The notes under the pieces are model-generated. The model was not told the DNA's origin, ran no database searches, and worked only from the letters and a program-made list of their open reading frames with translations. A stretch of 64,000 bases of DNA, from NCBI RefSeq assembly GCF_019634845.1, contig NZ_JAHCAQ010000006.1, forward strand, positions 62,001 to 126,000. The letters run 5' to 3'. Below are positions 4,534-44,693 of the stretch, piece after piece. The position numbers were made by a program, and so were the translations under genes. The stretch's first letter is position 1. Each line of letters opens with the position of its first letter. The DNA is from Dokdonella sp. (GTDB taxonomy: Bacteria > Pseudomonadota > Gammaproteobacteria > Xanthomonadales > Rhodanobacteraceae).

Positions 4534-4808
4534 CGATCCATGGGCGGCCATGCGGCAGGCATTGGCCAGAAGGGGGGCTGCCCGGCAAGGATGCAATTAG
4601 CCTGCCAGCACCGGGCGAGGCAGTTGCCGGCGTTGCCATGGCCTGATCCGCCGCGAACTGACACCATCTGTTCGAAATGCACCGGCGCTGCGCCAGACGT
4701 GACAGCGACGGTTGGCAGCGGACGCCAGCGCGTCGCCGCTGGTTACTGCCGCCGCAGCCACCGCCAGCGACGGCGTGGCTTGCGGCGTAGGTTTTGAGCC
4801 GGCGCCGG

Positions 4809-6014: not shown

Positions 6015-6045
6015 CGGTGGGCTCGGCGTCGGGATCGGCGCGCAA

Positions 6046-6054
6046 CCTATAGCA
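6046..6054 (-). promoter_or_regulatory. Possible extended -10 promoter of the beta-helix gene
   Basis: Minus-strand bases TGCTATAGG match an extended -10 element and end 31 bases before the ATG at 6014. No -35 is obvious. Confidence 0.3.
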
Positions 6055-6202
6055 AGGTGCCCCGCTTCTGGCATCATCAAGTTTGTGGAGCCACAGTCGC
6101 CGCGGACGCTGCCATCGCGTCGTCGTGGCGCACGTGCGCCGGGCTGCGGCGATGGCGTATCGTGGCGATGGCATGATGCGGTTGATGGCACAGGATGGAC
6201 GC

Positions 6203-8116: not shown

Positions 8117-8119
8117 GGC

Positions 8120-27100: not shown

Positions 27101-27729
27101 GCGTCGATGGGGCACACGGCGGCGTCGCCGCCACGGCCTTGGTGGCGCGGCTCGCCGAGCGCCTGCAGGGCGTACTCGATGCGCCGCTGCCGGTCGGTCG
27201 GCACAGCCAGCCCAGCCTCGGCGGCTTGGCGGCGCAGGCACAGCGCGCCGAGATGGAGTTCAACTTCGTGCTCGACGGGGTATCGCTGCGGGCGCTGCGC
27301 GAGGTCTGTCCATGGACGCCGGGCGAGTCGTTCGGTGACCTGCGCGGGCTCATGAACGGCAAGATCGATCTCGTGTTCGAGCACGAGGGCCGTTGCCATG
27401 TCGTCGACTACAAGACCAACCGTCTAGGCGACGGGCGCGACTTGGCGGCCTACCTGCCGGCACGGCTCGACGCGCCGATGGACGAGCACCACTATCGGTT
27501 CCAGGCGCTGCTTTACACGGTGGCGGTGGAGCGCTACCTGCGCCAGCGCAGGCGCGATTACCGCCGCGAGCATCATTTGGGCGCCACGCTGTACCTGTTC
27601 GTGCGTGCGGTCGGCATCGACCCGGCGCTGCCACAGGCTGGCATCTGGACGCATCGCTTCGACGATGACCTGCTCGATGCCGTCGATCGGGTCCTTGCCG
27701 GGCGCAAACTGGCACGGGGTGACGCATGA
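24172..27729 (+). CDS. recB: RecBCD enzyme subunit RecB (3'-5' helicase and nuclease)
   Basis: This 1185-residue protein is nearly the same length as E. coli RecB (1180). Superfamily 1A helicase motifs are in order: Walker A EASAGTGKTW, VALVDEFQDTD, MIGDPKQAIYRFRGGD, LLTVHASKGLEFD and LLYVALTRARH. The C-terminal RecB nuclease domain has D1066 in NGKIDLVFEH and VVDYKTN near residue 1078, the metal-binding D and DYK. It overlaps recC and recD by 4 bases on each side (ATGA junctions), so translation of the three subunits is coupled. Confidence 0.97.
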   Translation: MNAPTFVSDWTALTLDAGGRSLIEASAGTGKTWTISVLYLRLLLERALSVRQIVVTTFTEAAAQELRERIRGRLMWALAQVGAATADHDAGEAAVARWLQARDAVASRDRLRLRLALAELDLAPIGTLHGLCQRILRDFPLVSGAPFEAGMIVDATRLRSELLDDLWRRLVQSSTPLAPDDAVAWQLGRRRLEQYLRAALAPGVVVPAADSAAIESFLALLDPAQAPAIMALAQAPVYARSNSALRTRLLEVAERIGSGRLDRDLAADLGAEILDRLGAGPQSNFHRDAIAEGRHHAVAAEAQRIGERLCAGSRALLQRVLARCQSELRERAEQRLMAAGELTYDALITRVQAALGDGSDRLGGQLHATWPVALVDEFQDTDALQYDILDRIYRAPDGSSRGRLIMIGDPKQAIYRFRGGDIDAYLAARSAADEQMTLAVNFRSSPAYVAALDELYASAGRVLSSQPGHAIACGDVAAAPGRADSYSVAGRRCTQPLQIHYLASAPPDAATCEEEALRACANHIVALLDGSHALDGVALQPRNLAVLLPAHRHIATLRELLQQRRVPCVSRGAARVFDSEWARELQVLLHAALHPGDAGAVRAALATELGACDWQRLRTIAADADLAQEASRWLHELGEVWRRRGVLALVQALIEQRGAVLAARADLERALTDLRHLGELLQAQSEQATGRDELLAWLADQRGAQAAGRTGDEQELRIESDAARVSLLTVHASKGLEFDIVLLPIMWKAQPAAGEVVTIHDAASGQRVLGFDAAARARDDCEVQDERHRLLYVALTRARHACHVYALPPSRPARRNGRSAATDPQRAPLDAMLERLLAADAPARLKHVALSTAGWPWPPAQWSDAVAAPSARSARNEPPAVPLAYRYSFSALARRAARTLADEDAAGDEREVAAVELAAVDAAPAAQPCAALEPLLGVVGTAFGNAVHAVFESRRIGVPLSAQHELVACALRDARVRVDGAHGGVAATALVARLAERLQGVLDAPLPVGRHSQPSLGGLAAQAQRAEMEFNFVLDGVSLRALREVCPWTPGESFGDLRGLMNGKIDLVFEHEGRCHVVDYKTNRLGDGRDLAAYLPARLDAPMDEHHYRFQALLYTVAVERYLRQRRRDYRREHHLGATLYLFVRAVGIDPALPQAGIWTHRFDDDLLDAVDRVLAGRKLARGDA

Positions 27730-29531
27730 GCGGCTATCGTTTCGAACGCGCCGACGGCGAGCTCGACTGCGACGCCTGGCGTGCGCTCGACCGCGCCGTG
27801 TATCGCTGGGTGCGCAGCCACGGCGGTGATGCGCTGCTGGCAGGCGTCGCCGCCTGGACGAGCCTGGCCGAAGGGCAGGGCGATGCGGCGCTGTCGCTGC
27901 GTGCCCCGCGTTACGGCATGGCGCCACTCGACGCGGCGCACCTGGCGGCGCTGCGTGACTCGCCCTGGGTGGCGACGCGGCCCGAGCACGGCCAGCGGCC
28001 GTTTGCGCTCGACGCCGCCGGGCGCTTCCAGTTGTGGCGCAACCACGCCCACGAACTGGCGATTGCACGCCATGTCCAGGCGCGGCGCGCGGGGGCGCCG
28101 TCGGCAGCGCCGGCGGCACCTGCCAGCGAGGCCGATCTCGACGCGTTGTTCGGCAACGATCGCAGCGCCGCGGTACAGCCGCAGCGCGCCGCGGTACGTG
28201 GCGTGCTCGGTCGGCGCCTGTTCGTGCTGACCGGCGGGCCCGGCACCGGCAAGACCACGACCGTGCTGCGCATGCTGCTGATGCTGCAACGGCATGCCGC
28301 CACGCCGCTCAAGCTGCGCCTGGCCGCGCCGACCGGCAAGGCTGCGCAGCGGCTTGCACAGGCCCTGCGCGACGGCAATGCGACCTTGCGCGCCGGCACC
28401 ACCGCAGTGGCCGACGCCTGGTGGCCGCTGCTCGATGCGATGGCCGGCATCGAGACCCTGACCGTGCATCGACTGCTCGGCTTCCAGCCCTGGCGCAACG
28501 CCTTCGCACGCGGCGCCGGCGATCCGCTCGATGCCGACGTCGTCGTCATCGACGAGGCCTCGATGGTCGACCTGGGCATGTTGCGCAGCCTGTGCGACGC
28601 ACTGCGCCCCGAGGCCTGCCTGATCCTCGTCGGTGATGCCGACCAGCTCACCTCGGTGGCCACCGGCTCGGTGCTGGCCGATCTGGTCGCGGTGCTCGAA
28701 GACGACGCGCGCGGCGATCTCGTGCGGCTCGAGCACAGCTTTCGCGCCGAACAGGGGCTGGCGGCCGTCAATGCCTTGGTGCGGGCCGGCGATGGCGCTG
28801 CCTTGCGGCGGGCGGCCGCCGACGGCACGGTGCTGCGCCAGCGCGTGATCGGCGACGAGCGCAGCCTGCGCGGCGCGCTGCGCGAGTGGGCGGTTGAGCT
28901 GGCCGCCGAGCCGGCGTTGCGTCCCGTCCTCGATGCCGGTGCCGCTGCCGGCGATGCCGTCACCGCGGCGCGCGTGCGTGGCGCACTCGGCGCGCTCGCG
29001 CGGCGCCAGCTGCTGTGCGCACTGCGCGAGACGGCGTTCGGCAGCATCGTCGCCAATGCCTGCATCGAGGCGCAGTTGCGCGCGGCCTGGCAGGTCGATC
29101 CGCAGGCGACCTGGTATGCCGGGCGCGCGGTCATGGTGACGCGCAACGACCATGCGGCAGGGCTGTTCAACGGCGATGTCGGCATCTGCCTGGCCGATGC
29201 CGCCGGTCGCCTGCGGGTGTGGTTCGACACGGCGCGCGATGGCGTTGCCGGCGTGCGCGCGCTGGCGATACGCGACCTGCCTGCGCACGAAGGCGCCTTC
29301 GCGATCACGATCCACAAGAGCCAGGGTTCGGAATACGAACGCGTCGCGGTGCTGCTGCCGACCGTTGCCGACCATCGCATCCTGTCGCGGCAACTGCTCT
29401 ACACGGGCTTCACCCGCGCGCGGCGCGAGGTCGAGCTGTGGGCCAACGATGGCGTGCTCACTGCGGCGCTGCGACAAGTGCTCGAGCGCAACGGCGGGCT
29501 GGCCGACAAGCTGGTGCAGACGGCCGCGTGA
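27726..29531 (+). CDS. recD: RecBCD enzyme subunit RecD (5'-3' helicase)
   Basis: This 601-residue superfamily 1B helicase (608 in E. coli) carries Walker A LTGGPGTGKTTT (about 168-178), VVIDEASMVDLGML (about 272), GDADQLTSVATGSVL, FAITIHKSQGSEYERV (about 525) and LLYTGFTRARREVEL. It is the fast motor of the RecBCD complex. ATG 27726 overlaps the end of recB by 4 bases. Confidence 0.96.
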   Translation: MSGYRFERADGELDCDAWRALDRAVYRWVRSHGGDALLAGVAAWTSLAEGQGDAALSLRAPRYGMAPLDAAHLAALRDSPWVATRPEHGQRPFALDAAGRFQLWRNHAHELAIARHVQARRAGAPSAAPAAPASEADLDALFGNDRSAAVQPQRAAVRGVLGRRLFVLTGGPGTGKTTTVLRMLLMLQRHAATPLKLRLAAPTGKAAQRLAQALRDGNATLRAGTTAVADAWWPLLDAMAGIETLTVHRLLGFQPWRNAFARGAGDPLDADVVVIDEASMVDLGMLRSLCDALRPEACLILVGDADQLTSVATGSVLADLVAVLEDDARGDLVRLEHSFRAEQGLAAVNALVRAGDGAALRRAAADGTVLRQRVIGDERSLRGALREWAVELAAEPALRPVLDAGAAAGDAVTAARVRGALGALARRQLLCALRETAFGSIVANACIEAQLRAAWQVDPQATWYAGRAVMVTRNDHAAGLFNGDVGICLADAAGRLRVWFDTARDGVAGVRALAIRDLPAHEGAFAITIHKSQGSEYERVAVLLPTVADHRILSRQLLYTGFTRARREVELWANDGVLTAALRQVLERNGGLADKLVQTAA

Positions 29532-29592
29532 ACGGCGCGAGGTGGCGGCTGCGGCCGGTTACACTGCAACCACGACAGGCGGGAGAGCAACG

Positions 29593-30387
29593 ATGGACTG
29601 GCGCCGCGCGGGTGTGATCGGGTCGCTGCTGTGCGGCCTGTCGGTGGCGCAGGCGGCCACCGAGGTCGAGCTGCTCGAGTCGTTCCCTGCTGGTGGCGAC
29701 ATCGTGGTGGCGCCCAACTCGAACGTGTACCTGCGCGCGCGCTACTCGGTCGACTCGCCGCAGCACATCTGGCTGCGGCCGTATTTCCGCGGCAAACCCG
29801 CGCGCGCCGGCAGTGGCACCTCGCCCGAGTATGCGGGCAGCGGCGAACTGCTGGGCTGGTTTTTCCTCATGCAGGACGGTGCCGAGGTCGACGAGATCCG
29901 CGCCACCGCCGGCGATGGCAGTCTCGCACGCACGCCGCTGGTCGCCAGCTGGCCATTGCACGTGGTCGCGCGCAGCGGCGCGCCGGCAACGGCGGCCGAG
30001 CCGCCCTGGGTGGCGACGCTGCAGGCGCAACGCGAGGCGGCCGATCGCGCGGCCGCCGCGGCCCATGTCGAGCGGCCGCTCACGCGCGGTGAGCGCACGC
30101 TGGTCGGTGGCTTCATGCTTGGCGTGCCCGTGCTCGGCCTGTTCGGTCTGCTGGCACCGTGCTGGGGCCTGTGGCGTTGGCGCGGGCGCTGGCGCTTGGC
30201 GGCGGCGGTGCCGGCCGTGGTGATGGGCTACGTGGTCGCACGCATCGTGGTGGACGGTGCACGTGATCCGACCTCGCACAACCTGTGGCCGTTCGAGATC
30301 CTCATGGCCGGCGGCTGCAGTTCGGCGCTCATGATCGTGCTGTTCATCGCGCGCGCCCTCATCAAGCCGGCGCGAGCCGTCCGCTGA
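29593..30387 (+). CDS. Membrane protein of unknown function
   Basis: This 264-residue protein begins with a signal-like segment (RRAGVIGSLLCGLSVAQA), followed by a soluble region of about 150 residues (VELLESFPAGGDIVV, YLRARYSVDSPQHIWLRPYF), which would be periplasmic. Three hydrophobic stretches near the C-terminus follow (LGVPVLGLFGLLAPCWGLW, AAAVPAVVMGYVVARIVV, ILMAGGCSSALMIVLFIA). I recognise no family. A GGGAG site precedes ATG 29593, and TACACT at 29560-29565 is a possible -10. It lies just downstream of recD with 61 bases between. Confidence 0.7.
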   Translation: MDWRRAGVIGSLLCGLSVAQAATEVELLESFPAGGDIVVAPNSNVYLRARYSVDSPQHIWLRPYFRGKPARAGSGTSPEYAGSGELLGWFFLMQDGAEVDEIRATAGDGSLARTPLVASWPLHVVARSGAPATAAEPPWVATLQAQREAADRAAAAAHVERPLTRGERTLVGGFMLGVPVLGLFGLLAPCWGLWRWRGRWRLAAAVPAVVMGYVVARIVVDGARDPTSHNLWPFEILMAGGCSSALMIVLFIARALIKPARAVR

Positions 30388-30428
30388 GTCCGGCTGCGCA
30401 GCGGCGCGGGCTCGACGCGACCCGCACG

Positions 30429-30460
30429 CGCGTACCCGTGCGGCGCGGCGCGGGTACGCG
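30429..30460. terminator. Inverted repeat between convergent genes
   Basis: The arms CGCGTACCCG (30429-30438) and CGGGTACGCG (30451-30460) are perfect complements around a 12-base GC-rich loop, between the stop codons of convergent genes. No T-run is present, so function as a terminator is probable only from position. Confidence 0.45.
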
Positions 30461-30474
30461 GACGATGGCGGCGG

Positions 30475-32529
30475 TCAGCGGTTGGCTGCGCTGCGATAGC
30501 GCTCGAACCAGGCCAGGATCGCCGCCGTCTTGGCGGCCGATTGCGAGGGCCGTTCGGCGAGGCCGCCGTGGTTCGCGCCGGGCACCTTGATGAGCGCGGT
30601 CGGCACGCCACGCAACTGCAATGCCTCGTAGTACTGCTCCGACTCGCTGACCGGCGTGCGGTGGTCCTCGCCGCCGACGATGACGAGGGTGGGCGTCTTG
30701 ACGTTGCCCACCAGCGACAGTGGCGAGTGCGCCCAGTAGCTCGTGATGTCCTCCCACGGATACTTGCCGAACCAGTAGCGCGCGAAGTACGGCGTCATGT
30801 CCGAAGTCAGCACGAAACTCGTCCAGTTGATGACGGGCTTCTGCGACACGGCGGCGCGGAAGCGGTCGGTTTTGCCGACGATCCAGGCCGTCAGCACGCC
30901 ACCGCCAGAGCCGCCGGTGACGAACAGGTTGTCGCGGTCGACCGAGCCGGTGGCGATCGCGGCGTCGACCACGCTCATGAGGTCGTCATAGTCGTGGCTT
31001 GGATAGTTCTTGTCGATCTGGTCGGCGAAGGCCTGGCCATAGCCGGTCGAGCCGCGCGGGTTGGCGTAGACGACGGCGTAGCCGGCGGCGGCGTAGAGCT
31101 GGTAGTCGGTCGAGAACGCGGGGCCATAGGCGGCGTAGGGTCCGCCGTGGATTTCGAGGATCAGTGGATATTTCCTGCCGGCCACGAAATCCGGCGGCGT
31201 GACCAGCCAGGCGTCGATCGGCAGGCCGTCGAATGCGCTGACCGCGAGCGGCGTGACCTTGCCGAGCGTGCGCGCGCCGAGCAGGGCGCGGTTGAGTCGG
31301 GTCAATTGGCGCGGCTTGCCGTCGCGCACGAGCCACACGTCGGCCGGATGCTGCGCGTCGCCACCGGTGTAGGCGATGCTGCCGTCGCGCGCGCTGCTGA
31401 ACTGGCCGCCGCTGTAGGGCCGGTCGAACTCATCACCGACGAGATTGTCGGCCAGCGTGCGCAGGCTGCCATCGAGGCCGACGCGTGCCAGGCGCGTGCC
31501 GCCGCCTTCGCCGTAGGTGACGAACAGCGCGCGACCATCGGCCGCCCAGCGTGGATCGGCGACGCTGCGGTCGAGCTTGGCAGTGAGCACGCGCGACTGG
31601 CTGCCGTCGGCGCGCATGAGCGACAGCTGTTCGTTCTGGTAGCCGAGGTACCTGTCGTCGAATCCGACGTAGGCGATCGACTGGCCGTCGGGCGATACCA
31701 CCGGCGCGCGATCGGGCCCGCGCCGATGGGTGAGCGTGCGCACCGCATGGGTGTCGAGCGCGACGGCATGGATCTCGCTCTCGGCGATGTTGCGCTCCCA
31801 GTCGGGTTCGAGGTTGGCGCTGAACAGCACCTCGCGGCCATCGTGCGACCAGGCGATCTGGCCGCCTGCATTGTGGGCGCCGAACGTGAGCTGGATCGGC
31901 GCGCCGCCATCGGCCGAGGTCCAGAAGATCTGCACGTAACCGGGCTTGGCGTAGCCGCCCTCGTCGGTGCGATACACGATCTTGTCGATGACCTGCAGCG
32001 GTTCGGCCCACTGCGCGCCGGGCGGCTTGAGCGGCGCCTTGCCCAGTTGCGCGCCCTCGTCGGGCACGAACATCGACCACGCGATGCGCGTGCCGTCGGG
32101 CGACCAGGCGATTCCGCGCGGCGCATAGGGCAGGCTGGTGATGCGCGCACTGGCGCCAGTGTTCATCCAGCGCACGTAGAGCTGCATGCCCGGGCCGTCG
32201 CCGTCGCTGGAGAGGTAGGCCAGGCGCGTGCCGTCGGGCGACCAGCGCGGTTGCACGTGGGAGCCGGCGCCGGCGACCAATGGCGTCTGCACGCCGCTGG
32301 CGACGTCGATGAGCCACAGCGTCGAGCGCGCGCGGTCGTGCATGATGTCGTTGCTTTGCCGCACATAGACCACGCGCTTGCCGTCCGGCGCGATCTGTGG
32401 ATCGCTGGCGGCCTCGAGATTGAACAGGTCATCGCCGGTGAGCACGCGCGGGGCGTGCTCCGCGGGCGTGGCCAGTACCGGGCTGGCGAGCAGGATCGCA
32501 CACAGGGCGATCGACAGGCGTGACGACAT
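30475..32529 (-). CDS. Exported S9-family prolyl oligopeptidase-type peptidase
   Basis: This 684-residue protein has a signal peptide (LSIALCAILLASPVLA), then a seven-bladed propeller region of TolB/WD40-like units (SPDGTRLAYLS, WSPDGTRIAWSM, SHDGREVLFSA, SPDGQSIAYVG), and a C-terminal alpha/beta hydrolase domain. The triad is the Ser of TGGSGGG (about 539), the Asp of VGGEDHRTP (about 619) and the His of PGANHGG (about 651). Acyl-aminoacyl peptidases and dipeptidyl peptidases share this layout. It would cut short peptides in the periplasm. It starts at ATG 32529 and appears to be transcribed alone. Confidence 0.93.
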   Translation of the reverse strand: MSSRLSIALCAILLASPVLATPAEHAPRVLTGDDLFNLEAASDPQIAPDGKRVVYVRQSNDIMHDRARSTLWLIDVASGVQTPLVAGAGSHVQPRWSPDGTRLAYLSSDGDGPGMQLYVRWMNTGASARITSLPYAPRGIAWSPDGTRIAWSMFVPDEGAQLGKAPLKPPGAQWAEPLQVIDKIVYRTDEGGYAKPGYVQIFWTSADGGAPIQLTFGAHNAGGQIAWSHDGREVLFSANLEPDWERNIAESEIHAVALDTHAVRTLTHRRGPDRAPVVSPDGQSIAYVGFDDRYLGYQNEQLSLMRADGSQSRVLTAKLDRSVADPRWAADGRALFVTYGEGGGTRLARVGLDGSLRTLADNLVGDEFDRPYSGGQFSSARDGSIAYTGGDAQHPADVWLVRDGKPRQLTRLNRALLGARTLGKVTPLAVSAFDGLPIDAWLVTPPDFVAGRKYPLILEIHGGPYAAYGPAFSTDYQLYAAAGYAVVYANPRGSTGYGQAFADQIDKNYPSHDYDDLMSVVDAAIATGSVDRDNLFVTGGSGGGVLTAWIVGKTDRFRAAVSQKPVINWTSFVLTSDMTPYFARYWFGKYPWEDITSYWAHSPLSLVGNVKTPTLVIVGGEDHRTPVSESEQYYEALQLRGVPTALIKVPGANHGGLAERPSQSAAKTAAILAWFERYRSAANR

Positions 32530-32900
32530 GGCTGAGGCTCCGTGGCGAGGCCCACGCGAGGGCGCAGGCGACAGCCTGTCACGATAGCGGCGCGCACGCC
32601 GTCCGGTACCCGCCAGAAGTCGTGGTCGGGGTGGCCGCGATTGCCGGTGCGCGTCGCAGACCCGCGGCCAACCACGTGCCGCTTGCGTCGCGACCCGTCA
32701 CCTGCGCCGTCACAAGGCCGGGGTTCACGAATTGGGCGCTCGATCGGCAGCGGCCCGCGGTGACTAACCGCTATCGATGCGGGTGGCACGCACTCGCTGA
32801 TGGTCATGCCGATGACTGGGTCCGAACGGCTACCGCGGGCGCCGTGCACGACGCCGTCGACGACCAAGGGCACGGTGCAGAGCGAGTCGGCGGGCAGTAG
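32530..32900. other. Non-coding stretch upstream of the S9 peptidase, left margin of the accessory island
   Basis: These bases include the minus-strand peptidase promoter. The first part keeps the host's high GC. I see no gene that I can support here. Confidence 0.4.
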
Positions 32901-33161
32901 GTACCCGACCGCATCCGCGCGCATGCGTTGATCTGCTTCCTCGCGCTCGTGCTCCATCGCATTCTGCGCAGCCGCATGCGCGCGACCGGCAGCAAGTTGT
33001 CGCCGAGCCGCGTACTGGCACTGCTGCGCCAGGTTCAGCACATCGACCTCTCGATCAACCAACAATCCGCCGCACGCAGCAGCGTGGTCACCCCCGAGCA
33101 ACGCGACCTCTTCGCTCAAATGCGATTGCCCGCACCAACCCAACACACCATCTCGTGGTGA
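32901..33161 (+). pseudogene. 3' remnant of an insertion-sequence transposase
   Basis: After an in-frame stop at 32898-32900 the frame reads VPDRIRAHALICFLALVLHR, then ILRSRM, LSPSRVLALLRQVQ and a natural end at 33161. The string DRIRAHALICFLALVLHRLL is characteristic of the C-terminal end of IS4/IS1634-like DDE transposases. The catalytic core and N-terminus are missing, so this is a dead fragment. It marks the left side of the lower-GC island. Confidence 0.75.
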
Positions 33162-33425
33162 CAATTTCGAATTTCGTGGGCTTGCCAATCAACTACTTAC
33201 GGATGTGGCTGCGGAACTTGGGCGCGACCTACTGACGCATCCAAGTTGACCCCCCCCGAAAAGTGCCTCCTCCGAGCGGGGAGGAATGGAACTCATGGAT
33301 GGCAATTGATCGGGCGTGTATGACGAACAGGTTTCGTAACATTGCCAAACTTGGCGGGCGCTTCATATGATGCGATACACGACCTTTCAAACGAGTCATC
33401 CACCAAGCGGTGCAAGGAGCGAGCG
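33162..33425. other. Intergenic region at the left edge of the accessory island
   Basis: GC drops visibly here. Around 33240-33290 the sequence (with an eight-C run and GAAAAGTGCCTCC, then GAGCGGGGAGG) resembles the edge of an insertion sequence, possibly IS21-like, but I cannot prove it. The end of the stretch carries AAGGAG before the start of the next gene. Confidence 0.35.
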
Positions 33426-34130
33426 ATGTCCAATGGCAACACGAGCGTCTCATTGATGGAAATCGCCCGACGTTCCTGGAACGAAGGGATGTTGACAGCG
33501 CCAACGAAGGAGGCGCTCGAATCGCGGCCGCTGATGGTCTTCGCGAGCTTGGGCTATCCGTTCGAGGACATTGATTCCGAGAACAAGGACCTGGCGCAGG
33601 CGATTCGCGAAAATCTCGAACTGTGTGCCGAACGGGCGATCGAAAGCGTTGCATCCTTCAGCAGTGCCATCGCTCCCGACGACAATACTGGCGTCTTTTT
33701 CTATCTGTTGGTCAACGCAGATGGAGATGAGCAGTTCAGCACGTTCTGGGATGGCAGCACTGAATTTGCAGGCCCTCATGGCGGAAGCATCAAGGCCCTG
33801 ATGGCTGCGCATGACTTCGAGGAGATGCTTCGCGAGCATGGTGATAGTACGACTATCGAGGTGTTCACCGTACTCGTGTTGCCTGATCCGGACGAGCAGT
33901 CGGTTTCATTGGAGACGGTCCACGAAGTGACCGAGGACTATGACGGTCGCGCAGTGTTCGTGGATCCCTCCGAGGGCACGTGCACCCTGCAGAATTGGAA
34001 CAACGGGGAACTTGATTCTGGAATCCTCGTTGCTGCAGACAACGATCTGGACGAGGATGACTACATTACCGACGAGACAGCCGTTCGCGGTGTGATTCTC
34101 GAGCTGTGGAAGAAGGCCAAGGAATCCTGA
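33426..34130 (+). CDS. Acidic protein of unknown function, first gene of the accessory island
   Basis: This 234-residue protein has no recognised domain. It is strongly acidic (about one residue in five is D or E, for example DNDLDEDDYITDE near the C-terminus), lacks a signal peptide or membrane segment, and is predicted to be soluble and cytosolic. Base composition and codon use are clearly less GC-rich than in flanking genes (codons such as aat, gaa, att are common), which points to transfer. AAGGAG lies upstream of ATG 33426. The kinase-fold gene follows after 93 bases on the same strand. Possible roles such as an immunity protein or DNA mimic would be guesses from its charge only. Confidence 0.75.
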   Translation: MSNGNTSVSLMEIARRSWNEGMLTAPTKEALESRPLMVFASLGYPFEDIDSENKDLAQAIRENLELCAERAIESVASFSSAIAPDDNTGVFFYLLVNADGDEQFSTFWDGSTEFAGPHGGSIKALMAAHDFEEMLREHGDSTTIEVFTVLVLPDPDEQSVSLETVHEVTEDYDGRAVFVDPSEGTCTLQNWNNGELDSGILVAADNDLDEDDYITDETAVRGVILELWKKAKES

Positions 34131-34223
34131 CGCGCAGGTGGAACTGTTCGGAATGCGTGAGATCGCAAGGGCGCTGGATCCAGCGTCCTTGCGGGGGTGC
34201 TCGCCGAATCCCGTGAAGAGCTG

Positions 34224-34856
34224 ATGGCGTCGGCAGTGGCTCAGGTCAATGTTGAAACGGCACATGACCCGGGGCAGACCGGGGGCCTTGCCCCCTACTC
34301 GGGATACACCATCGGCGGCGATGTCAACCTGAGGGCGTTGGGTCGCGTGGGCAAGGCGGTTGCCAAGACGACGTTGGCAAGCGTCTTCCGGGTCGAGGTG
34401 GGTCAGCGCGTTTTCGCGTACAAGCGATTTCTCGTCAAGGCGCGGTCATCGTGGGCGCGTGAGGTTGCTTCGCACCTGCTTCTTCCGCGTATTGACGTGG
34501 CCGCACTCCAGGCATTCGGAATCGATGCGCAGGATCGCCCGTGGCTGATGACGCAATGGTGCGGCTGGCCAAACCTGCGCTGGCTGCTTCGTGAAGATGG
34601 TGGCAATGCGTCTAAGGAGAATGCGGGTCACCTCATTGGACGAATTTCCGAATCACTTCGTGTCGTGGGCTACGCGTGGACCGACCCGGCTACACGGAAT
34701 CTCCTGGTACCGGACCTCGCAATGACTCGCTATTGCATGGTCGACTATGCGTTGAGGCCGATCGGCAGTGCGCCGGCTTTTGAAGCGCGTATCGCAGCGC
34801 TGTTGGTCACATCAGAAGCAACGAGCTTCTGGAAGGCGGACTTCGACTCCAACTGA
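34224..34856 (+). CDS. Small protein-kinase-fold protein (WaaP/Kdo-kinase-like), accessory island
   Basis: This 210-residue protein has no close match that I recognise, but the key kinase-fold positions can be read. They are VFAYKRFLVK (K67 as the ATP lysine), SWAREVASHLLL (a helix-C glutamate), a hinge-like WLMTQWCGWPNL, a catalytic loop YAWTDPATRNLLV (D154 and N159, five residues apart as in HxDxxxxN) and MVDYAL (D174, in the DFG position). The look is closest to small lipopolysaccharide/Kdo kinases. It lies in the lower-GC island. The next gene starts 21 bases after the stop codon, so the two are cotranscribed. Substrate unknown. Confidence 0.6.
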   Translation: MASAVAQVNVETAHDPGQTGGLAPYSGYTIGGDVNLRALGRVGKAVAKTTLASVFRVEVGQRVFAYKRFLVKARSSWAREVASHLLLPRIDVAALQAFGIDAQDRPWLMTQWCGWPNLRWLLREDGGNASKENAGHLIGRISESLRVVGYAWTDPATRNLLVPDLAMTRYCMVDYALRPIGSAPAFEARIAALLVTSEATSFWKADFDSN

Positions 34857-34877
34857 AAACCGACCAAAGGGGGAGCC

Positions 34878-35663
34878 ATGGACTGTTCAAGCGCCTGGAT
34901 TCGAGGAACCGAACTCAAACGGGTGATCAATACTTACAAGCCGCGACACGACTTCGGAAGCATGAAGGAGAATGAGCGTGTCCCGCTCGACCTCGACAAA
35001 TACCGATACCTACTTGGCGAGGATCGTTGCGATCCCGTGCCATTCGTCGTTCAAGGTGACCTCTTCGTAACCATCCATGATGTCGACGTGGAGTGTGAGG
35101 TCATCGACTTCACCAACATCCGTTTCACGCGCAAAGCATTGAACAGCGCAATCCTGGATGCGCAAAGGGACGTGGATGCGGTCAAGGATGATCGTTATGG
35201 AACGACGAAGGTCAGCGAGCTGGCGCGATCCATCAACTTCGGCGATTCAGATGCGGCGGTGGGATTGAGCGAGGCAGTTTGCATGTGGGGCGGCGGCGGG
35301 CGTGTCTGGGGAAACTTGCTGCGTCACTACGACAGGAGCGAGTTGGGCAGCGAGCTGTCCAAGTGGTTCCTCAGCGCACACAAGGAGGAGGATCCCGTTC
35401 GCGCAATCGGACCTGGAATCGAAATCAAGGGGCTGGGTGTCTCATTTGCAAGCAAACACCTGCGTTTTCTTGCGCCTGAGCGTTTTGCGGTACTGGACGA
35501 CGTCCTGCACCAGGGACTTGGCTATGCGCTGAACGCGATGGGTTACAAACTCTTCCTTCGCGATCTGGACAGGCTGAGCAAGGCACACGACCTCGCCTAT
35601 TGCGTTGCCGACCTGGAGCACGCGATCTTCCTCATGGTTCGGCAAATCGTCCGGTCGATGTAA
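34878..35663 (+). CDS. HhH-GPD (OGG/MutY-like) DNA-glycosylase-fold protein, accessory island
   Basis: This 261-residue protein has in its C-terminal half a helix-hairpin-helix-GPD signature: GIEIKGLGVSFASKHL followed by ERFAVLDDVLHQ. Aligned to MutY, the hairpin glycine pair is G185 and G187, S189 falls where bifunctional glycosylases have the catalytic lysine (MutY also has Ser), and D207 is the conserved Asp, 18 residues later as in MutY and EndoIII. That predicts a base-removing but not strand-cutting enzyme. I see no iron-sulfur cluster cysteines. The N-terminal 100 residues are unrecognised. GGGGGAG precedes ATG 34878. It is cotranscribed with the kinase-fold gene. Confidence 0.6.
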   Translation: MDCSSAWIRGTELKRVINTYKPRHDFGSMKENERVPLDLDKYRYLLGEDRCDPVPFVVQGDLFVTIHDVDVECEVIDFTNIRFTRKALNSAILDAQRDVDAVKDDRYGTTKVSELARSINFGDSDAAVGLSEAVCMWGGGGRVWGNLLRHYDRSELGSELSKWFLSAHKEEDPVRAIGPGIEIKGLGVSFASKHLRFLAPERFAVLDDVLHQGLGYALNAMGYKLFLRDLDRLSKAHDLAYCVADLEHAIFLMVRQIVRSM

Positions 35664-35746
35664 GGGGTGTTCGAAAGGGGTGCCCGCGAAAATCATGTGC
35701 GGCGTTCTGGAGACATCAAGCACGGCAAAAAAGCATAGAAACCAAC

Positions 35747-36418
35747 TCAGTCATCACCATCTGCCCATGCGCTTTCTACTTCCTCTCTGAACGCCTCCAT
35801 GCGGTCCACGAGTGATTGCGCACGTTTCTGGCGTTGCCGGTACTTGGCAATGCTCCAGTCGGGATAAAGGACGGTGGGGTGTGCGTTGATGCCAGCATAG
35901 CCGCGCGAGAGCAAATCCATGACCCAAGGTTCGTCGGTGTTTCCGCCGGAGAGCATCGAGCCTTCATCATCGCGCCGTTCGGAAACGAAAATGCAGAATT
36001 GCCCGATGGCCTCTGGTTTCAAGTATTGGCAATCATTGCCCCAACCGAAGTTGAACAACTCGAACACTTCGTAGAAGTCACAGCTGGGCCGGCTTCGAAG
36101 CTTGTCGAGCATCTCCTGGCTATCCACCTCCTGCCCAGAGACGCGATCCATGTTGTCGATGATGCATGAAATGACCTCCCTGTCCCTCACGATCACCACG
36201 AACTCCTCGTGGGCAAACTCACCGCCGCCGGCATATCCGGCCAGCACTCCGAGGAAGGTTTCATCCTCGACCCGGTCAAATGCGACAAACCACCTGCATC
36301 GGGCAAAACCATCGGATTCGTCCAGTTCCCAGCAGCCATGCCATTTGAACGCGGCATCTGGCAGGCTTCCCGTGGATTCGGAGCGCAAGGCGTTCAGATT
36401 CTCCAGTGCTTTTTTCAT
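35747..36418 (-). CDS. Acidic protein of unknown function, convergent gene of the accessory island
   Basis: This 223-residue protein has no domain that I recognise. It is acidic and soluble, has several aromatic-rich segments (FKWHGCWELDESDGF, CRWFVAFDRVEDETFLG, FELFNFGWGNDCQYL) and a basic/acidic helical C-terminus. There is no signal peptide. Codon use is of the same lower-GC kind as the three convergent genes on its left, 83 bases away. The start at 36418 (MKKALENL) is the first ATG. It may be cargo acquired with the island rather than a partner. Confidence 0.7.
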   Translation of the reverse strand: MKKALENLNALRSESTGSLPDAAFKWHGCWELDESDGFARCRWFVAFDRVEDETFLGVLAGYAGGGEFAHEEFVVIVRDREVISCIIDNMDRVSGQEVDSQEMLDKLRSRPSCDFYEVFELFNFGWGNDCQYLKPEAIGQFCIFVSERRDDEGSMLSGGNTDEPWVMDLLSRGYAGINAHPTVLYPDWSIAKYRQRQKRAQSLVDRMEAFREEVESAWADGDD

Positions 36419-36515
36419 GGCATTGGGATGGATTCAAGGTCGGGGTTCTTTGGGGAACGGTACTGCGAGAATGCTGGGGCGATCCACTCATTTCCAATCG
36501 ATCTCAGAAGTGGAG

Positions 36516-36602
36516 CTATGCCGCCATGGCGAATTTTTGCATGGGGGTAATACCGCCGATGGCCATGTTGGGCCGTTTGTTATTGTTGGTCCATAGCCAT
36601 CG
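36516..36602 (-). pseudogene. C-terminal remnant of an IS3-family transposase (OrfB)
   Basis: The minus strand from 36602 to the TAG at 36518-36516 reads WLWTNNNKRPNMAIGGITPM then QKFAMAA and a stop. This is the typical tail of IS3-family OrfB transposases (the usual form is RPNMALGGITPKQRLAMAA). Upstream sequence no longer fits the family, so only the end survives. Bases down to about 36484 look like the IS terminal segment. It marks the right side of the island. Confidence 0.8.
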
Positions 36603-36666
36603 CGCTGCCGACAACTGGGAGCAAGCAGGTGGTCGTCAGGCGCAACCCGGAGCGTGGCGAGGCGGC

Positions 36667-38541
36667 TCAGTCGTGCGCGCGCACGATGCCGCGTGCGACC
36701 AGTGCCGCGACGATGGCGCGGGCGGCCTGCTCGGGTGACTGCGTGGTGGTGTCCAGGTGCAGTTCGGGGCTCTGTGGCGCTTCGTAGGGCGAGTCGATGC
36801 CGGTGAAGTTCTTGAGTTCGCCGCGGCGTGCCTTGCGGTACAGGCCCTTGGGGTCGCGCGCCTCGACCACGGCCAGTGGCGTATCGACAAAGATCTCGAT
36901 GAACTCGGCGTCCTCGACCATGCTGCGCGCGAGCGCGCGTTCGGAGCGGAACGGCGAGATGAAGGCGGTCAGCACGATGAGGCCGGCGTCGACCATGAGC
37001 CGTGCGACCTCGCCGACCCGGCGGATGTTCTCGACGCGATCGGCGTCGGTGAAGCCGAGGTCCTTGCTCAGGCCGTGGCGGATGTTGTCGCCATCGAGCA
37101 GGTAGGTGCGTGCGCCCAATGCGTGCAGTTCGCGCTCGACGAGGTTGGCGATCGTCGACTTGCCGCTGCCGGACAGACCGGTGAACCACAGCACGGCCGG
37201 GCGGTGGCCGTTCTGGCGCGCTCGCGCCTGTTTGTCGATGTCGACGGCCTGCCAGTGGATGTTCTGCGAGCGGCGCAGGGCGAAATGGATGAGGCCGGCG
37301 CCGACCGTGCGGTTGGTGTAGCGGTCGATGACGATGAAGCCACCCATGTCGCGGTTGGCGGCATAGGCATCGAAGGCGACTGCGCGATCGAGCGCGAGGT
37401 TGGCGACGCCGATGCCGTTGAGCTCGAGCGTGCGCGCGGCGAGCTTGTCGAAGCTGTTGACGTCGATCGCGTACTTGGGCGCGCTGAACGAAGCGCCGAC
37501 GGTGGTCGTGCCGAGCTTTGCGAGGTAGGGGCGGCCGGGCAGCATCGGCGCCTCGTCCATCCAGATCAGTGTGGTTTCGAACTGGTCGGCAACGCCGGCC
37601 GGATCATTGGCCGCGCACAGCACGTCGCCGCGGCTGGCGTCGACATCGTCGGCGAGCGTGAGCATGACCGATTCGCCGCGCACGGCCTGCGCCGCGTCGG
37701 CGGCGAAACCGACGATGCGCGCCACCGTGGTCTGGCGCCCCGACGGCAGCACGCGCACGGCATCGCCTGGGCGCACGCTGCCGCCGAGGATGCGACCCGC
37801 ATAGCCACGGAAATCGTGGCCGGGCCGGCACACCCACTGCACGGGCAGGCGCAGCGGATCATCGCCGGCGGCCATGTCGGGCTCGACATGCTCCAGATGC
37901 TGCAGCAGGCTCGGACCGGTGTACCAGGGCGTGTGCGCGCTGCGCGTGGCGATGTTGTCGCCGTGCAACGCGGACAGCGGAATGGCGGTGATCTGGTGCA
38001 GCGCCAGGTGCTGCGCAAACTCGCGGTAGTCGCGCTCGATCTGCTCGAAGCGCTCGCGTGACCAGTCGACGAGGTCGAGCTTGTTGATTGCCAGCACGAC
38101 GTTGCGGATGCCCAGCAGTGACACGATGTGGCTGTGGCGGCGGGTCTGGGTGAGCACACCCTTGCGCGCATCGACGAGAATGACCGCCAACTGCGCCGTC
38201 GAGGCGCCGGTGACCATGTTGCGCGTGTACTGCTCGTGGCCGGGCGTGTCGGCGACGATGAACTTGCGGCGCGCGGTGGCGAAGAAGCGGTAGGCGACGT
38301 CGATCGTGATGCCCTGCTCGCGCTCGGCCGACAGGCCATCGACGAGCAGCGCGAAATCGAGCGCCTCGCCCTGGGTGCCGAAGCGGCGCGACTCGTCGGC
38401 GAGTGCGGCGAGCTGGTCGTCGGGCAGGGCGTGGGCGGCGTGCAGCAGACGGCCGATCAGCGTGCTCTTGCCGTCGTCGACGCTGCCGCAGGTAATGAAG
38501 CGCAGCAGGTCGCCTTGCCGGTTGGCGGTGGGCGCGTCCAT
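36667..38541 (-). CDS. cysNC: Bifunctional sulfate adenylyltransferase large subunit / adenylylsulfate kinase (CysN-CysC fusion)
   Basis: This 624-residue cytoplasmic protein makes and then phosphorylates adenylylsulfate during sulfate assimilation. Residues 1-430 are the GTPase subunit CysN, with G motifs GSVDDGKST, the switch region [24 protein letters not shown] and NKLDLVD. The C-terminal 180 residues are APS kinase CysC, with P-loop GLSGSGKST (about 455), [11 protein letters not shown], and the specificity loop [18 protein letters not shown]. The start overlaps the cysD stop by one base, so the two are coupled. No cysH, cysI or cysJ is in the window. Confidence 0.97.
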
Positions 38542-39443
38542 CAGAAGTAACCTTCGCTTTTCTTGCGTTCCATCGAGGCGCCGCCATCGCGGTCGATCAC
38601 GCGCCCTTGGCGCTCGCTGCTGTGCGTGTGTTCCATCTCGGTGATGATCGCGTCGAGACTGGTCGCGTCCGACTCGATCGCGCCGGTCAGCGGGTAGCAG
38701 CCGAGCGTGCGGAAGCGCACACGGCGGATCTGGATGGATTCGCCGCTGCGCAGCGGCATGCGCTCGTCATCGACCATGATGAGGGCGCCATCACGTTCGA
38801 CCACAGGGCGTTCGGCGGCGAAGTACAACGGCACCACCTCGATGCGCTCGGCGCGGATGTACTGCCACACGTCGAGCTCGGTCCAGTTCGACAGCGGGAA
38901 CACGCGGATGCTTTCGCCGGGGCCCTTGCGCGCGTTGTACAACCGCCACAGCTCGGGGCGCTGCTGCTTCGGGTCCCAGTGATGCTGCCGGTTGCGGAAC
39001 GAGAACACGCGCTCCTTGGCGCGGGATTTTTCCTCGTCACGGCGCGCGCCGCCGAAGGCAAGATCGAACTGGTATTGGTCGAGCGCGAGCTTGAGGCCCT
39101 GGGTCTTCCACAGGTCGGTGTGCAGCGCCGAGCCATGTTCGATGGGATTGATGCCGAGCCGCTGCGCCTCGGGGTTGTGGTACACGATGAGGTCGAACTG
39201 GCCGCTGTGCGCGACGCGGTCGCGCAGCGCATACATGGCGCGGAATTTCCACGTGGTGTCGACGTGCAGCAGCGGAAACGGCACGCGGGCGGGATGGAAG
39301 GCCTTGCGCGCCAGATGCAGCAGCACCGAGCTGTCCTTGCCGATCGAATACAGCATGACCGGCCGCTCGGCCTCGGCGACGGCCTCACGCAGGATGTCGA
39401 TGCTCTCGGCTTCGAGTTGGCGCAGGTGGCTCAGGGCACTCAT
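38541..39443 (-). CDS. cysD: Sulfate adenylyltransferase small subunit
   Basis: This 300-residue PP-loop-type ATP sulfurylase subunit matches CysD in length and motifs: [20 protein letters not shown], the segment [25 protein letters not shown], and the C-terminal ERKKSEGYF ending. It forms the ATP sulfurylase heterodimer with CysN. ATG 39443 gives the family's normal start ([15 protein letters not shown]). Confidence 0.97.
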
Positions 39444-39471
39444 CGGCAGGTCGCGGTGGATGATCGCCGCG

Positions 39472-39477
39472 AGTGTA
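39472..39477 (-). promoter_or_regulatory. Possible -10 element of cysD-cysNC
   Basis: The minus strand reads TACACT 29 bases before the cysD ATG. A good -35 hexamer is not seen, so an activator such as CysB could be required; that is inference. Confidence 0.3.
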
Positions 39478-39564
39478 CGGTGCTGCCGCGCGCGCGGCCA
39501 TGACGGGGCGGCATGTGGACAGAACGCCGCGCCGTGGGGCGCGCCTGTCGCGCTCGCGCGGCAG

Positions 39565-40119
39565 TCAGCGGTAGCCGGCGCAGAATGCCGGCGCGTCCTT
39601 GCCGAGCAGATCGCAGCCGCTCTTGATCTCGTCGGTGATGAGCGCGCAGGCGTTGGCAGAATTGCACGGCGGGTGCGTGGCCGGCGACACCTGCTGGCAC
39701 TGCGCCACGTATTGTTCGGCTTTCTGCGCGCCAACTTCGGCCACGCAGTCCGCGGCCGATGGCGCCTGCGCGCTGGCGTCCTGCCTGCGCGGGACGCAGC
39801 TGGCGCCGTGCGCGTTGCAATCGAGTTCGCGCTGGAGCTGTTCGGCACGCTGCGCCGTCAGTGCCTCGATGCATGCGTCATGGGCGGACCTGGCGCTCGC
39901 CGCGTCGTGGTGTCCCTGCGCCTTGAACGCACATTCCTTGTCGCGGAAGGCCAACCAGGCACGCTGTGCATCGCGCAGACGGCCCTGATTGGCGGCGTCG
40001 AGCTGGCCCATCAGCGCACGATAGTGCTGGTTGAGCGCGGGATCGGCGCCGGACGCCATGGCCGCCGGCGCGGCCCAGGCCGTGATGCAGAGCGCAATGA
40101 TGATCGCGGGTGCCTTCAT
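39565..40119 (-). CDS. Exported LprI-domain protein
   Basis: This 184-residue protein begins with a signal peptide ([20 protein letters not shown]). Its central segment [35 protein letters not shown] matches the LprI-like domain (formerly DUF1311), a periplasmic helical module that in some proteins inhibits lysozyme. The C-terminal half is cysteine-containing ([23 protein letters not shown]) and probably has disulfides. It is downstream of the outer-membrane barrel gene with a 90-base gap and may share its transcript. Confidence 0.75.
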
Positions 40120-40209
40120 GGCCATTTCTCATCGGATGACGGGCCGCTCGCCGTGGCCTGTGGTTCCAGTGCAGCCGGCGGCGCAGGCGCCGCCGGTCCG
40201 CGACGATGC

Positions 40210-41028
40210 TCAGAACCGGAAACGCACGAAGGCGGACGGGCCCTGGAGGTCGATGTCGAAATCGAACGAGCGGTCGTTGATGAGCCTGCGGCCGAGCGCC
40301 ACGCGGGTGCCGCCGTATTCGGCGCCGAAACCGACGTTCTCCCACGGGAACCATTCCACGCCCACGCGAGCATCGACGATGTGGCCGCGCAGCGGACCAC
40401 CGCTCTTGCGCACGCCCGAGGCGATCGCATAGACGCGCAGCGAATCGGAGAATGCGTGCTTGTAGCCGAGGTCGAGCATCGGTGCCACCGCGCTCTTCTT
40501 GCTGCCGACATGGCCGGTACCTGCCGGTTGGCCGTTGACGACGATGTCGCCGGCCAGCCTGATTTCGGCCGTGTAGTAGGTGGCGCCGAGGCCGACGCCG
40601 AACACGTCCTGGTCGCCGCCGAACCACCAATGCCAAGCCAGGCTGCCTGCGCTGAAGCCGTACTTGGCGCGCAGCGTGGTGTCGACCTGGAACTCGGTGC
40701 CGTCATAGACGAAGGCATCGTGCAGGTTGTGCTGGTGGGTCCGGTTGAAGTCGTACCAGTCGAAGGTGAGGCCCTGGCGCTCGAACATGAGGAAGTCGAA
40801 GCGGGCGCGCGCGATCGTGTCGTGGCCGGCGTCGAGGTCGAGATGGGTGGGCTGGTTGGCGACTTTGCCGTAGAGGTCGAACTTGACGTCGGGGTAGTAC
40901 GCGCCGAGCCAGACGCTGATGCGGTCGAGCGCCTGCGAAGTGTCGCTGCAGCGCGCGTCACCCGACCAGGCGGCGCAGGCGAGGATGCCGGCTGCGGCGA
41001 GCGCACGCGGCAGATGCGTGAAGTTCAT
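40210..41028 (-). CDS. Outer-membrane beta-barrel protein
   Basis: This 272-residue protein has an N-terminal signal sequence (LPRALAAAGILACAAWSG) and alternating hydrophobic strands rich in aromatic and glycine residues (VWLGAYYPDVKFDLYGK, ARFDFLMFERQGLTFDWYDF, VGLGATYYTAEIRL). It ends in SAFVRFRF, a terminal-Phe signature of BAM-inserted barrels. I think it belongs to the TIGR04219-type barrels, with moderate certainty. It lies 32 bases after the ketosynthase gene, on the same strand, so it may be in its operon. Confidence 0.7.
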   Translation of the reverse strand: MNFTHLPRALAAAGILACAAWSGDARCSDTSQALDRISVWLGAYYPDVKFDLYGKVANQPTHLDLDAGHDTIARARFDFLMFERQGLTFDWYDFNRTHQHNLHDAFVYDGTEFQVDTTLRAKYGFSAGSLAWHWWFGGDQDVFGVGLGATYYTAEIRLAGDIVVNGQPAGTGHVGSKKSAVAPMLDLGYKHAFSDSLRVYAIASGVRKSGGPLRGHIVDARVGVEWFPWENVGFGAEYGGTRVALGRRLINDRSFDFDIDLQGPSAFVRFRF

Positions 41029-41060
41029 GCGATGTCCCCCTGTTGAGAATGCTTGTCAGT

Positions 41061-42275
41061 TTACTTCATCCGGCGCAGTGCCAGCACGGCGTTGAGGCCG
41101 CCGAAAGCGAACGAATTGGACAGCGCCGCGCGCACCGGCAGATCGCGCGCGGCGTTGGGCACGTAGTCGAGATCGCACTCGGGGTCGGGCTCGACGAAGT
41201 TCATGGTCGGCGGCACCACGCCGTCGCGCAGGGCGCCGATCGTGGCGACGAGCTCGACGGCGCCGGCGGCGCCGAGCGCATGGCCGTGCATCGACTTGGT
41301 CGACGACACCGCGAGGCGATCGGCATGTGCGCCGAACACGCGGCGCAGGGCCTTGGTTTCGGTCGGGTCGTTGGCCGGCGTGGCCGTGCCGTGGGCATTG
41401 ACGTAGTCGACATCGGCCGGGTCGAGGCCGGCATCGGCGAGCGCGCGGCTGATCGCCTTGGCGGTCCAGGTCTCGGACGGAAACACGATGTCGCCGGCGT
41501 CGGCGGAAAGACCGGCGCCGGCCAATTCGGCGAGGATGGTGGCGCCGCGCGCTCGCGCGTTGTCGAGCGTTTCGAGCACGAAGATCGCAGCACCCTCGCC
41601 GAGCACCATGCCGCGGCGCTGCTTGCTGAACGGACGGCAGGTGTCGTCGGCCATCACGCGCATCGCTTCCCATGCACGCACCACGCCGAGCGTGATGCAG
41701 GCCTCGCTGCCGCCGGCGAGCGCGGCGCGGGCCGCGCCGCTGCGCACGAGCATGAAGGCTTGCGCCAGCGCATGGTTGGCCGAGGCGCAGGCGCTGGAGG
41801 TGGCAAATGCCGCACCGTGCAGGCCGTGCTCGATGCAGACGTGGCTGGCCGGTGCATTGGCGATCAGGCGCACGATCGTGAGCGGGTGCAGGCGCGGGTT
41901 GTTGTCGCCGTACAGGCGCTTGGAGGCCTCGTCGTGCGTGGTCTCGCCGCCAATGCCGGTGCCGATGATGACGGCGGTGTCATCGCCCAGGCCGTCGCGC
42001 GCGAAATCGATGCCCGATTGCGCCACCGCCTCGCGCGCCGCGACCAGCGCGAACTGCGTGAAGCGGTCGTACTGGACGAGCTTCTTTTCGTCGAAGTGCG
42101 CGAGCGGATCGAAGCCGCGTACTTCGGCGGCAATGCCGTAACGCAGGCCTTCGCGCGGAAAGTTCTCGATCGGGCCGATCGCCACGCGACCTTCGCGCAG
42201 TGCAGCCCAGGTGGCGGCCGCAGTGTGGCCGAGCGGCGTTACGGCGCCGATGCCGGTGATGACGACGCGATGCAT
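41061..42275 (-). CDS. Beta-ketoacyl-ACP synthase (FabF/KAS II-like)
   Basis: This 404-residue condensing enzyme has the thiolase-fold active site: C163 in ATSSACASANHAL, the first His in VNAHGTATPANDPTE (about 299) and the second in STKSMHGHALGAAGAVE (about 337). It elongates acyl chains on ACP. It is encoded directly after a dedicated ACP (13-base gap) and away from the main fab genes, which suggests a special acyl product rather than bulk fatty-acid synthesis. NodE/NodF-like pairs and the very-long-chain ACP systems are comparable. The window contains no ketoreductase or dehydratase, so it must borrow the general ones if it elongates fully. Confidence 0.92.
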   Translation of the reverse strand: MHRVVITGIGAVTPLGHTAAATWAALREGRVAIGPIENFPREGLRYGIAAEVRGFDPLAHFDEKKLVQYDRFTQFALVAAREAVAQSGIDFARDGLGDDTAVIIGTGIGGETTHDEASKRLYGDNNPRLHPLTIVRLIANAPASHVCIEHGLHGAAFATSSACASANHALAQAFMLVRSGAARAALAGGSEACITLGVVRAWEAMRVMADDTCRPFSKQRRGMVLGEGAAIFVLETLDNARARGATILAELAGAGLSADAGDIVFPSETWTAKAISRALADAGLDPADVDYVNAHGTATPANDPTETKALRRVFGAHADRLAVSSTKSMHGHALGAAGAVELVATIGALRDGVVPPTMNFVEPDPECDLDYVPNAARDLPVRAALSNSFAFGGLNAVLALRRMK

Positions 42276-42288
42276 TGAGTGGCTCGGC

Positions 42289-42546
42289 TCAGGCGTGCGG
42301 CGCGTCTTTGGCGGCCACGAGCTTCTCGACCGCCTCGACCAGCCCGCTCACCGAGCCGGTGTCGAAGTTGGCGTCGTGGTCGGGCAGGCTGATCTTGAAG
42401 TGATCCTCGATCTCGAAAATGATCTGCACCACGTCGAGCGACTGGATCTCGAGATCCTTGAGCGTCGCCTGCGGCGTGATCTTGGCGCGATCGATGTTCG
42501 CCTCCTTGGCGATGATGTCGAACACGGTGTCCTGGACGCTGCTCAT
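42289..42546 (-). CDS. Acyl carrier protein, atypical phosphopantetheine site
   Basis: This 85-residue protein has the acidic four-helix ACP pattern. The 4'-phosphopantetheine serine is S36 in LEIQSLDVVQIIFEIE. The residue before it is Gln instead of the almost invariant Asp of the DSL motif, which is more like specialised carriers (NodF or AcpXL-type) than housekeeping ACP. ATG 42546 has GGAG upstream; an open extension of eight residues exists. It is the first gene of a transcript with the ketosynthase, and it is divergent from two transporter genes (176 bases between starts). Confidence 0.9.
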   Translation of the reverse strand: MSSVQDTVFDIIAKEANIDRAKITPQATLKDLEIQSLDVVQIIFEIEDHFKISLPDHDANFDTGSVSGLVEAVEKLVAAKDAPHA

Positions 42547-42722
42547 CGATACCATCTCCGCAAATGCCATGGGGGTGCAGCGCTACAGCCGCCTGGTGCA
42601 ACGCGCATGATCGCTGTCGGCGACGCGATGTTCAAGCCGTGCATGCGGCCGCGTGTCGGCGCTGGCGTTCCCTGCATCGTGGCAGGCGGGCATACTGCGC
42701 ACCCGCTACGCACGTTCCCGGC

Positions 42723-43082
42723 ATGTCCACGATCATCGTCCTGCTCTGGCTGGCCAACATAGTGCTCGACACTTTCGGGCAGCTTTCCTTCAAGGCCGCG
42801 GCGGTCGCCCCCGACCTGGGCGAAGGTCTCGCGCGCTGGCGCGCAATGGCGCGACGCCCGTGGATCTGGCTTGGCGCCGGAGCCTACATCGGCGAATTCG
42901 TGGTCTGGCTTGCGTTCCTGTCGCTGGTGCCGTTGTCGCAGGGCGTGCTGCTGGGTTCGATCAACATCGTCGCGGTGATGGTCGCCGGCCGCATGCTGTT
43001 CGCCGAGAAGTTCTCGCCGCTGCGCACGCTCGGCATCCTGCTGGTCGCCTGCGGCGTCGCCGTGGTCGGCATCGGAGGCTGA
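42723..43082 (+). CDS. Four-helix EamA/SMR-type membrane transporter subunit
   Basis: This 119-residue protein has four predicted membrane helices (IIVLLWLANIVLDTFGQLSF, IWLGAGAYIGEFVVWLAFL, GVLLGSINIVAVMVAG, LGILLVACGVAVVGI) and the EamA/SMR look of half-size drug/metabolite transporters. The arrangement of two tandem small subunits resembles ArnE/ArnF, which flip undecaprenyl-phosphate-aminoarabinose across the inner membrane. It is followed two bases later by its presumed partner and then by a DegT aminotransferase. Confidence 0.75.
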   Translation: MSTIIVLLWLANIVLDTFGQLSFKAAAVAPDLGEGLARWRAMARRPWIWLGAGAYIGEFVVWLAFLSLVPLSQGVLLGSINIVAVMVAGRMLFAEKFSPLRTLGILLVACGVAVVGIGG

Positions 43083-43084
43083 AC

Positions 43085-44678: not shown

Positions 44679-44693
44679 CGCGGGCCGGGCGAG

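Follow-up and report, generated by a model that had tools for sequence, protein, structure and literature searches.

A low-GC island of Dokdonella sp. encodes a putative monofunctional DNA glycosylase of the HhH-GPD superfamily

Introduction

To our knowledge two protein scaffolds serve base-excision immunity, namely the HALFPIPE fold of PabI and the uracil-DNA glycosylase (UDG) type of Brig. Brig1 and Brig3 are described as UDG relatives (PMC11078745, PMC13160076), and Brig2 is known as cited in PMC13160076. According to these reports Brig glycosylases remove bases from phage DNA and leave abasic sites, and their homologues are found in defence islands, some of them near transposases (PMC11078745, PMC13160076). 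Restriction glycosylases of the PabI family are described as HALFPIPE proteins with apurinic/apyrimidinic (AP) lyase activity that employ base excision as restriction (PMC10273834). For the 8-oxoguanine DNA glycosylases (OGG) it is reported that an aspartate serves base hydrolysis and a lysine gives the lyase step, and that the C-terminal lysine of OGG2 is strictly conserved (PMC3397491). Here, we describe a window of 64,000 nucleotides from Dokdonella sp. (contig NZ_JAHCAQ010000006.1, positions 62,001 to 126,000); the contig is 201 kb long and the genome 3.26 Mb. The window contains an inserted island of four genes (P0001 to P0004), and the focus is on P0003, a putative DNA glycosylase.

The putative glycosylase and its family

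P0003 (34878..35663, + strand, 261 amino acids) is assigned by its modelled fold and its motif to the HhH-GPD DNA glycosylase superfamily, the fold that a preliminary description of this DNA had proposed from the letters alone. The AlphaFold2 model has a predicted local distance difference test score (pLDDT) of 94, its best structural neighbours are OGG2 glycosylases (3n0u, 3knt, 3fhg, 9o00) and the active-site motif aligns with that of OGG2 without gaps. Entries of Brig or UDG are missing among the structural neighbours listed for this model, which excludes nothing. The only Pfam match of P0003 is PF21790 (putative OGG-like protein), yet with 20.3 bits it stays below the curated cut-off of 27; at E <= 0.01 this entry is also the sole Pfam match for 4 of the 17 members of the family. 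When the profile of P0003 was searched against the sequences of the PDB, the TorS sensor (E 0.0034) outscored OGG2 (E 0.079); the TorS match covers residues before the hairpin motif and was taken as chance.

The family alignment (A3) comprises 17 rows, with the interrupted or truncated members L011, L015, L016 and L022 excluded; L002 represents the same place as L017. G185, G187 and D207 are invariant in all rows and form a GxG hairpin followed by the catalytic aspartate, and the position of the Schiff-base lysine is occupied by serine throughout (S189 in P0003). Since the lysine is lost but the aspartate kept, P0003 is predicted from its sequence to be a monofunctional glycosylase. An invariant lysine, K193, follows one helical turn beyond and is also kept in a distant branch described below; in our reading it probably lies in the base pocket. 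The C-terminus of P0003 reads Arg-Ser-Met, without the lysine of OGG2. A zinc-ribbon N-terminus was considered for the family and dismissed, as both CxxC pairs occur in only two rows and the second pair in seven.

The family is rare and patchily distributed and has probably spread horizontally. In its phylogenetic tree only 3 of 17 inner branches are well supported; P0003 and its relative from Lysobacter ruishenii share one loosely supported group (86/97).

A looser search revealed distant relatives in 12 Pseudomonas records (megaplasmids, including pQBR103, which is listed under Pseudomonas fluorescens SBW25) and in one Caballeronia. Together with P0003 these distant proteins have WG, GxG, ASKxLR and LD residues, one megaplasmid protein scores 25.8 against PF21790, and they form a separate, well-supported branch (100/98). 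In all six Pseudomonas records inspected a DNA methyltransferase gene precedes the distant coding stretch by 9 bp (L096:3411-5399, L098:1711-3663, L099:1711-3663, L095:5411-7369, L097:2411-4366 and L101:1711-3642 for the pairs), and in two of them the glycosylase-like stretch is unannotated. The one methyltransferase that was scanned has N6_N4_Mtase and Mrr_N domains. This arrangement looks like a restriction pair without nuclease. The Caballeronia copy is accompanied by insertion sequence (IS) elements, but no annotated methyltransferase stands beside it. As the megaplasmid relatives are on a separate branch, the pairing is a hint for the family but does not prove anything for the island.

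Neighbourhoods of the family members

The surroundings of 20 loci with relatives of P0003 (L004-L023) were represented by 129 proteins encoded within ~5 kb (genes of 130-1000 amino acids, simple caller). At E <= 1e-10 PADLOC assigned 194 families to these neighbours, and the matches listed include NERD-UvrD, WYL, AbiEi, type I and II restriction-modification (R-M) and reverse-transcriptase models. For the control, 92 proteins encoded near cysNC (14 stretches) or near Kdo-kinase genes (9 of 16 loci) in the window's genus were pooled; they gave 38 families, of which the 25 listed hold no R-M or Abi and include models of a GajB-type helicase, pVip, RecD, ZorB and mads_3. Twenty-six neighbours were then chosen by eye and scanned singly. 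In one set of ten, five were without Pfam match, PADLOC matched neither the two proteins from L014 nor the two from L018, and its tallies of JukA and JukB were located at no neighbour gene.

A defence-type gene was placed within 5 kb at 8 of the 20 loci, three of the eight belonging to Halomonas; at the other 12 none was placed within this distance. L006 has an Mrr-type endonuclease together with an AAA_21 ATPase, and L008 (Lysobacter ruishenii) a SIR2-domain protein and a further neighbour whose matches to TnsA-like proteins and integrases are weak. In L010 (Methylophaga, 1777-8780) a UG14 reverse transcriptase (~4.7 kb away), a type II methyltransferase and an XhoI-type endonuclease precede the glycosylase gene. 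The remaining loci carry a NERD-helicase (L011), AbiEi (L015), a zeta toxin (L016), WYL and PDDEXK_4 proteins (L018) and a type I methyltransferase (L019). The survey of neighbourhoods yielded defence-type genes at eight loci and no conserved pairing with P0002. The tendency towards defence genes supports the preliminary description, whose proposed defence or conflict role may prove correct.

Some further observations concern the same loci. A small gene pair, toxin-antitoxin by our reading, stands before the glycosylase gene of L010. In three Halomonas genomes (L011:2802-8762, L015:3109-8402, L016:3040-8393) the glycosylase gene, which is interrupted or truncated in each of them, is preceded by genes for a regulator, a metallophosphatase and a NERD-UvrD helicase, the placements of WYL and metallophosphatase being our reading of the tallies. 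L007 sits amid genes that we read as those of a propionate pathway. Downstream of the relative in Halorhodospira (L009:4353-5048) a 231-residue protein rich in Asp and Glu is encoded, which has no Pfam match and no similarity to P0001.

The insertion and its other genes

The inserted segment (32510..36667) is located between an S9-peptidase gene (30475-32529, - strand) and cysNC (36667-38541, - strand), both named by our reading. In L049 and L050, two same-genus genomes among 14 fetched stretches, the spacing between the aligned blocks of these genes is ~177 bp and ~171 bp, respectively, compared with ~4.16 kb in the window. Because both genomes carry the same flanking genes less than 200 bp apart the region is a real insertion, and the mobility of the cargo module suggested earlier is supported by this comparison. 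No S9 gene was found beside cysNC in the other 12 stretches, of which two lie near contig ends. Over 33000 to 36499 the GC content is 0.56-0.59 in 1-kb windows vs 0.66-0.74 outside the island within 25000-45000, and the four open reading frames (ORFs; 33426-34130 and 34224-34856 on the + strand, 34878-35663 on the + strand, 35747-36418 on the - strand) are open at these coordinates, with alternative upstream starts possible for P0001 (TTG 33342) and P0002 (GTG 34197).

On the left a C-terminal remnant of an IS1634-family transposase (32904..33158, + strand, 85 amino acids) was detected by tblastn with up to 53% identity (E 7e-17), and on the right the C-terminal remnant (OrfB tail) of an IS3-family transposase (36519..36593, - strand, 25 amino acids) with 80% identity (E 2e-5). 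Both are fragments for which a Pfam search gave no match, and searches of the genome with the surrounding DNA returned no further match for either (one search scored 40 of 127 first-look candidates). The low-GC segment of ~4 kb is thus an insertion between transposase remnants, and the preliminary description was right about its four genes of lower GC, about the two remnants and about the 21 bases between the second and third gene. A search for IS-end repeats and target duplications at the island revealed repeats that are all short and mostly imperfect. The window contains no tRNA and no Rfam family at gathering scores; a promoter scan returned one site (33342-33371), no more than expected by chance.

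P0001 (33426..34130, + strand) is a very acidic protein of 234 amino acids (pI 4.05) for which no relative was found in 273 other genomes of the class or in plasmids. It is separated from P0002 by a near-perfect palindrome of 30 bp without T-run (34164..34193, + strand), around which positions 34150-34215 have a folding energy of -32.8 kcal/mol (z -3.1). The palindrome is possibly a terminator or an operator, or something else.

P0002 (34224..34856, + strand, 210 amino acids) displays the kinase-like residues K67, E80, D154xxxxN159 and D174, and the preliminary description had seen in it a kinase fold paired with the glycosylase. No relative was detected in 232 other genomes of the family, 273 other genomes of the class, plasmids, phages or viral contigs. 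Beside the 20 loci with P0003 relatives none appeared at E 1, and the best match in another search was at chance level (E 0.72, L019). Pfam, NCBIfam, PADLOC and PHROG gave no match up to E 10, and matches to nitrile hydratase in the PDB (E 0.76 or worse) were taken as chance. The structure model from the single sequence has a pLDDT of 32, and hhalign against the 16 Kdo kinases of the genus returned a probability of 0.2%, the lone query sequence weakening both the Pfam and the hhalign test. The D-N-D core pattern of kinases is present in P0002, in 14 of the 16 Kdo kinases and in none of 221 other proteins (38 of 20000 shuffles). It is post hoc twice over, because it was drawn up after seeing P0002 and its first version missed all 16 Kdo kinases and was widened. 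Thus, with no relative found in these collections and the fold not confirmed, the pairing of kinase and glycosylase has no support as a conserved unit.

P0004 (35747..36418, - strand) is an acidic protein of 223 amino acids (pI 4.5). Its single convincing relative (L008:8756-9256; E 9.3e-6 in 3690 ORFs, 8e-9 pairwise) is encoded in Lysobacter ruishenii, where it immediately follows the relative of P0003 and the two ORFs overlap by one base. The 273 other genomes of the class contain one weak match (19.3 bits, E 8.5e-4) and the plasmids none. Because its relative directly follows that of P0003, P0004 is judged from sequence as the better candidate for a partner than P0002. P0001, P0002 and P0004 are best read as cargo to which the favoured explanation assigns no role.

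Possible function

We favour the explanation that P0003 is a mobile effector that acts by base excision on foreign DNA, i.e. genome defence on a scaffold other than that of Brig or PabI, and consider it about evenly balanced between being right and wrong; the glycosylase activity, the substrate and the role against invaders are what we infer. The protein would bind DNA and flip a base into the pocket next to the hairpin, where D207 would cut the N-glycosidic bond and leave an abasic site. As serine replaces the Schiff-base lysine, P0003 itself is not expected to cut the strand, a step that would fall to host AP endonucleases or, in other genomes, to the helicase or nuclease neighbours. The target on invading DNA may be a modified base or a sequence without protection. 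More tentatively, the family and its megaplasmid cousins may have evolved independently as a third scaffold of base-excision immunity, an HhH-GPD protein without AP-lyase lysine that acts alone or beside helicase and nuclease genes and that supplies, on Pseudomonas megaplasmids such as pQBR103, the toxic partner of a methyltransferase in a restriction pair.

P0003 could instead be an ordinary mobile repair glycosylase for a damaged base, the nearby defence genes reflecting shared integration hot spots. The closeness of fold and motif to 8-oxoguanine OGG2 enzymes would suit this role, as would the 12 loci without a placed defence gene and some family copies that we read as lying beside IS elements or metabolic genes. 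We nevertheless think it rather unlikely, given a rare and patchy family, a catalytic lysine that is gone in every aligned row and restriction-type genes near three loci (L006, L010, L019). P0003 could also remove an ordinary base from a specific sequence that has not been methylated by a methyltransferase encoded elsewhere, as the N6/N4-type methyltransferase genes preceding the distant relatives suggest. This is improbable for the island, since Pfam finds a methyltransferase domain in none of its four proteins, the paired relatives belong to the separate branch and even there the Caballeronia member is without annotated methyltransferase.

Control of base excision by P0002 as kinase-fold partner, the model of the preliminary description, draws on the close spacing of both genes on the same strand and on the post hoc residue pattern; the absence of any P0002 relative beside a P0003 relative and of profile and fold support makes it very doubtful. 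The least probable reading, for which little credence is left, is that P0003 hydrolyses a nucleoside or modified nucleotide and not DNA, like the queuosine-salvage DUF2419 family, the fold of which it resembles.

Comparison with known systems

Among the papers listed on glycosylases in phage defence, restriction glycosylases and the pQBR103 methyltransferase, mostly outside subscription journals, we recognised none that describes the P0003 family. If the favoured explanation is true, HhH-GPD would be added as third scaffold to base-excision immunity, so that repair glycosylases would have been turned into weapons repeatedly, and the base modifications of phages would face attack from a larger number of enzyme families than is known. 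This idea is directly testable with the methyltransferase-glycosylase pair of pQBR103.

With the OGG2 8-oxoguanine DNA glycosylase/AP lyases P0003 has in common the HhH-GPD fold, the gap-free motif and the catalytic aspartate. It differs from them by the serine in place of the catalytic lysine, by ~75 extra N-terminal residues, by the missing C-terminal lysine and by the defence-linked contexts of part of its family. P0002 and the Kdo kinases (PF06293) have the DxxxxN..D residue pattern in common, whereas profile similarity is absent. The likeness to PabI would consist in base excision as restriction and in the methyltransferase that also adjoins the distant megaplasmid relatives; PabI is described as a HALFPIPE protein with AP lyase activity, the model of P0003 aligns with HhH-GPD proteins, and the island proteins have no methyltransferase domain. 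To Brig it would be analogous in the proposed logic of base removal, in homologues found in defence islands and in the proximity of some of them to transposases, but Brig1 and Brig3 are described as UDG-related and P0003 is modelled as an HhH-GPD protein.
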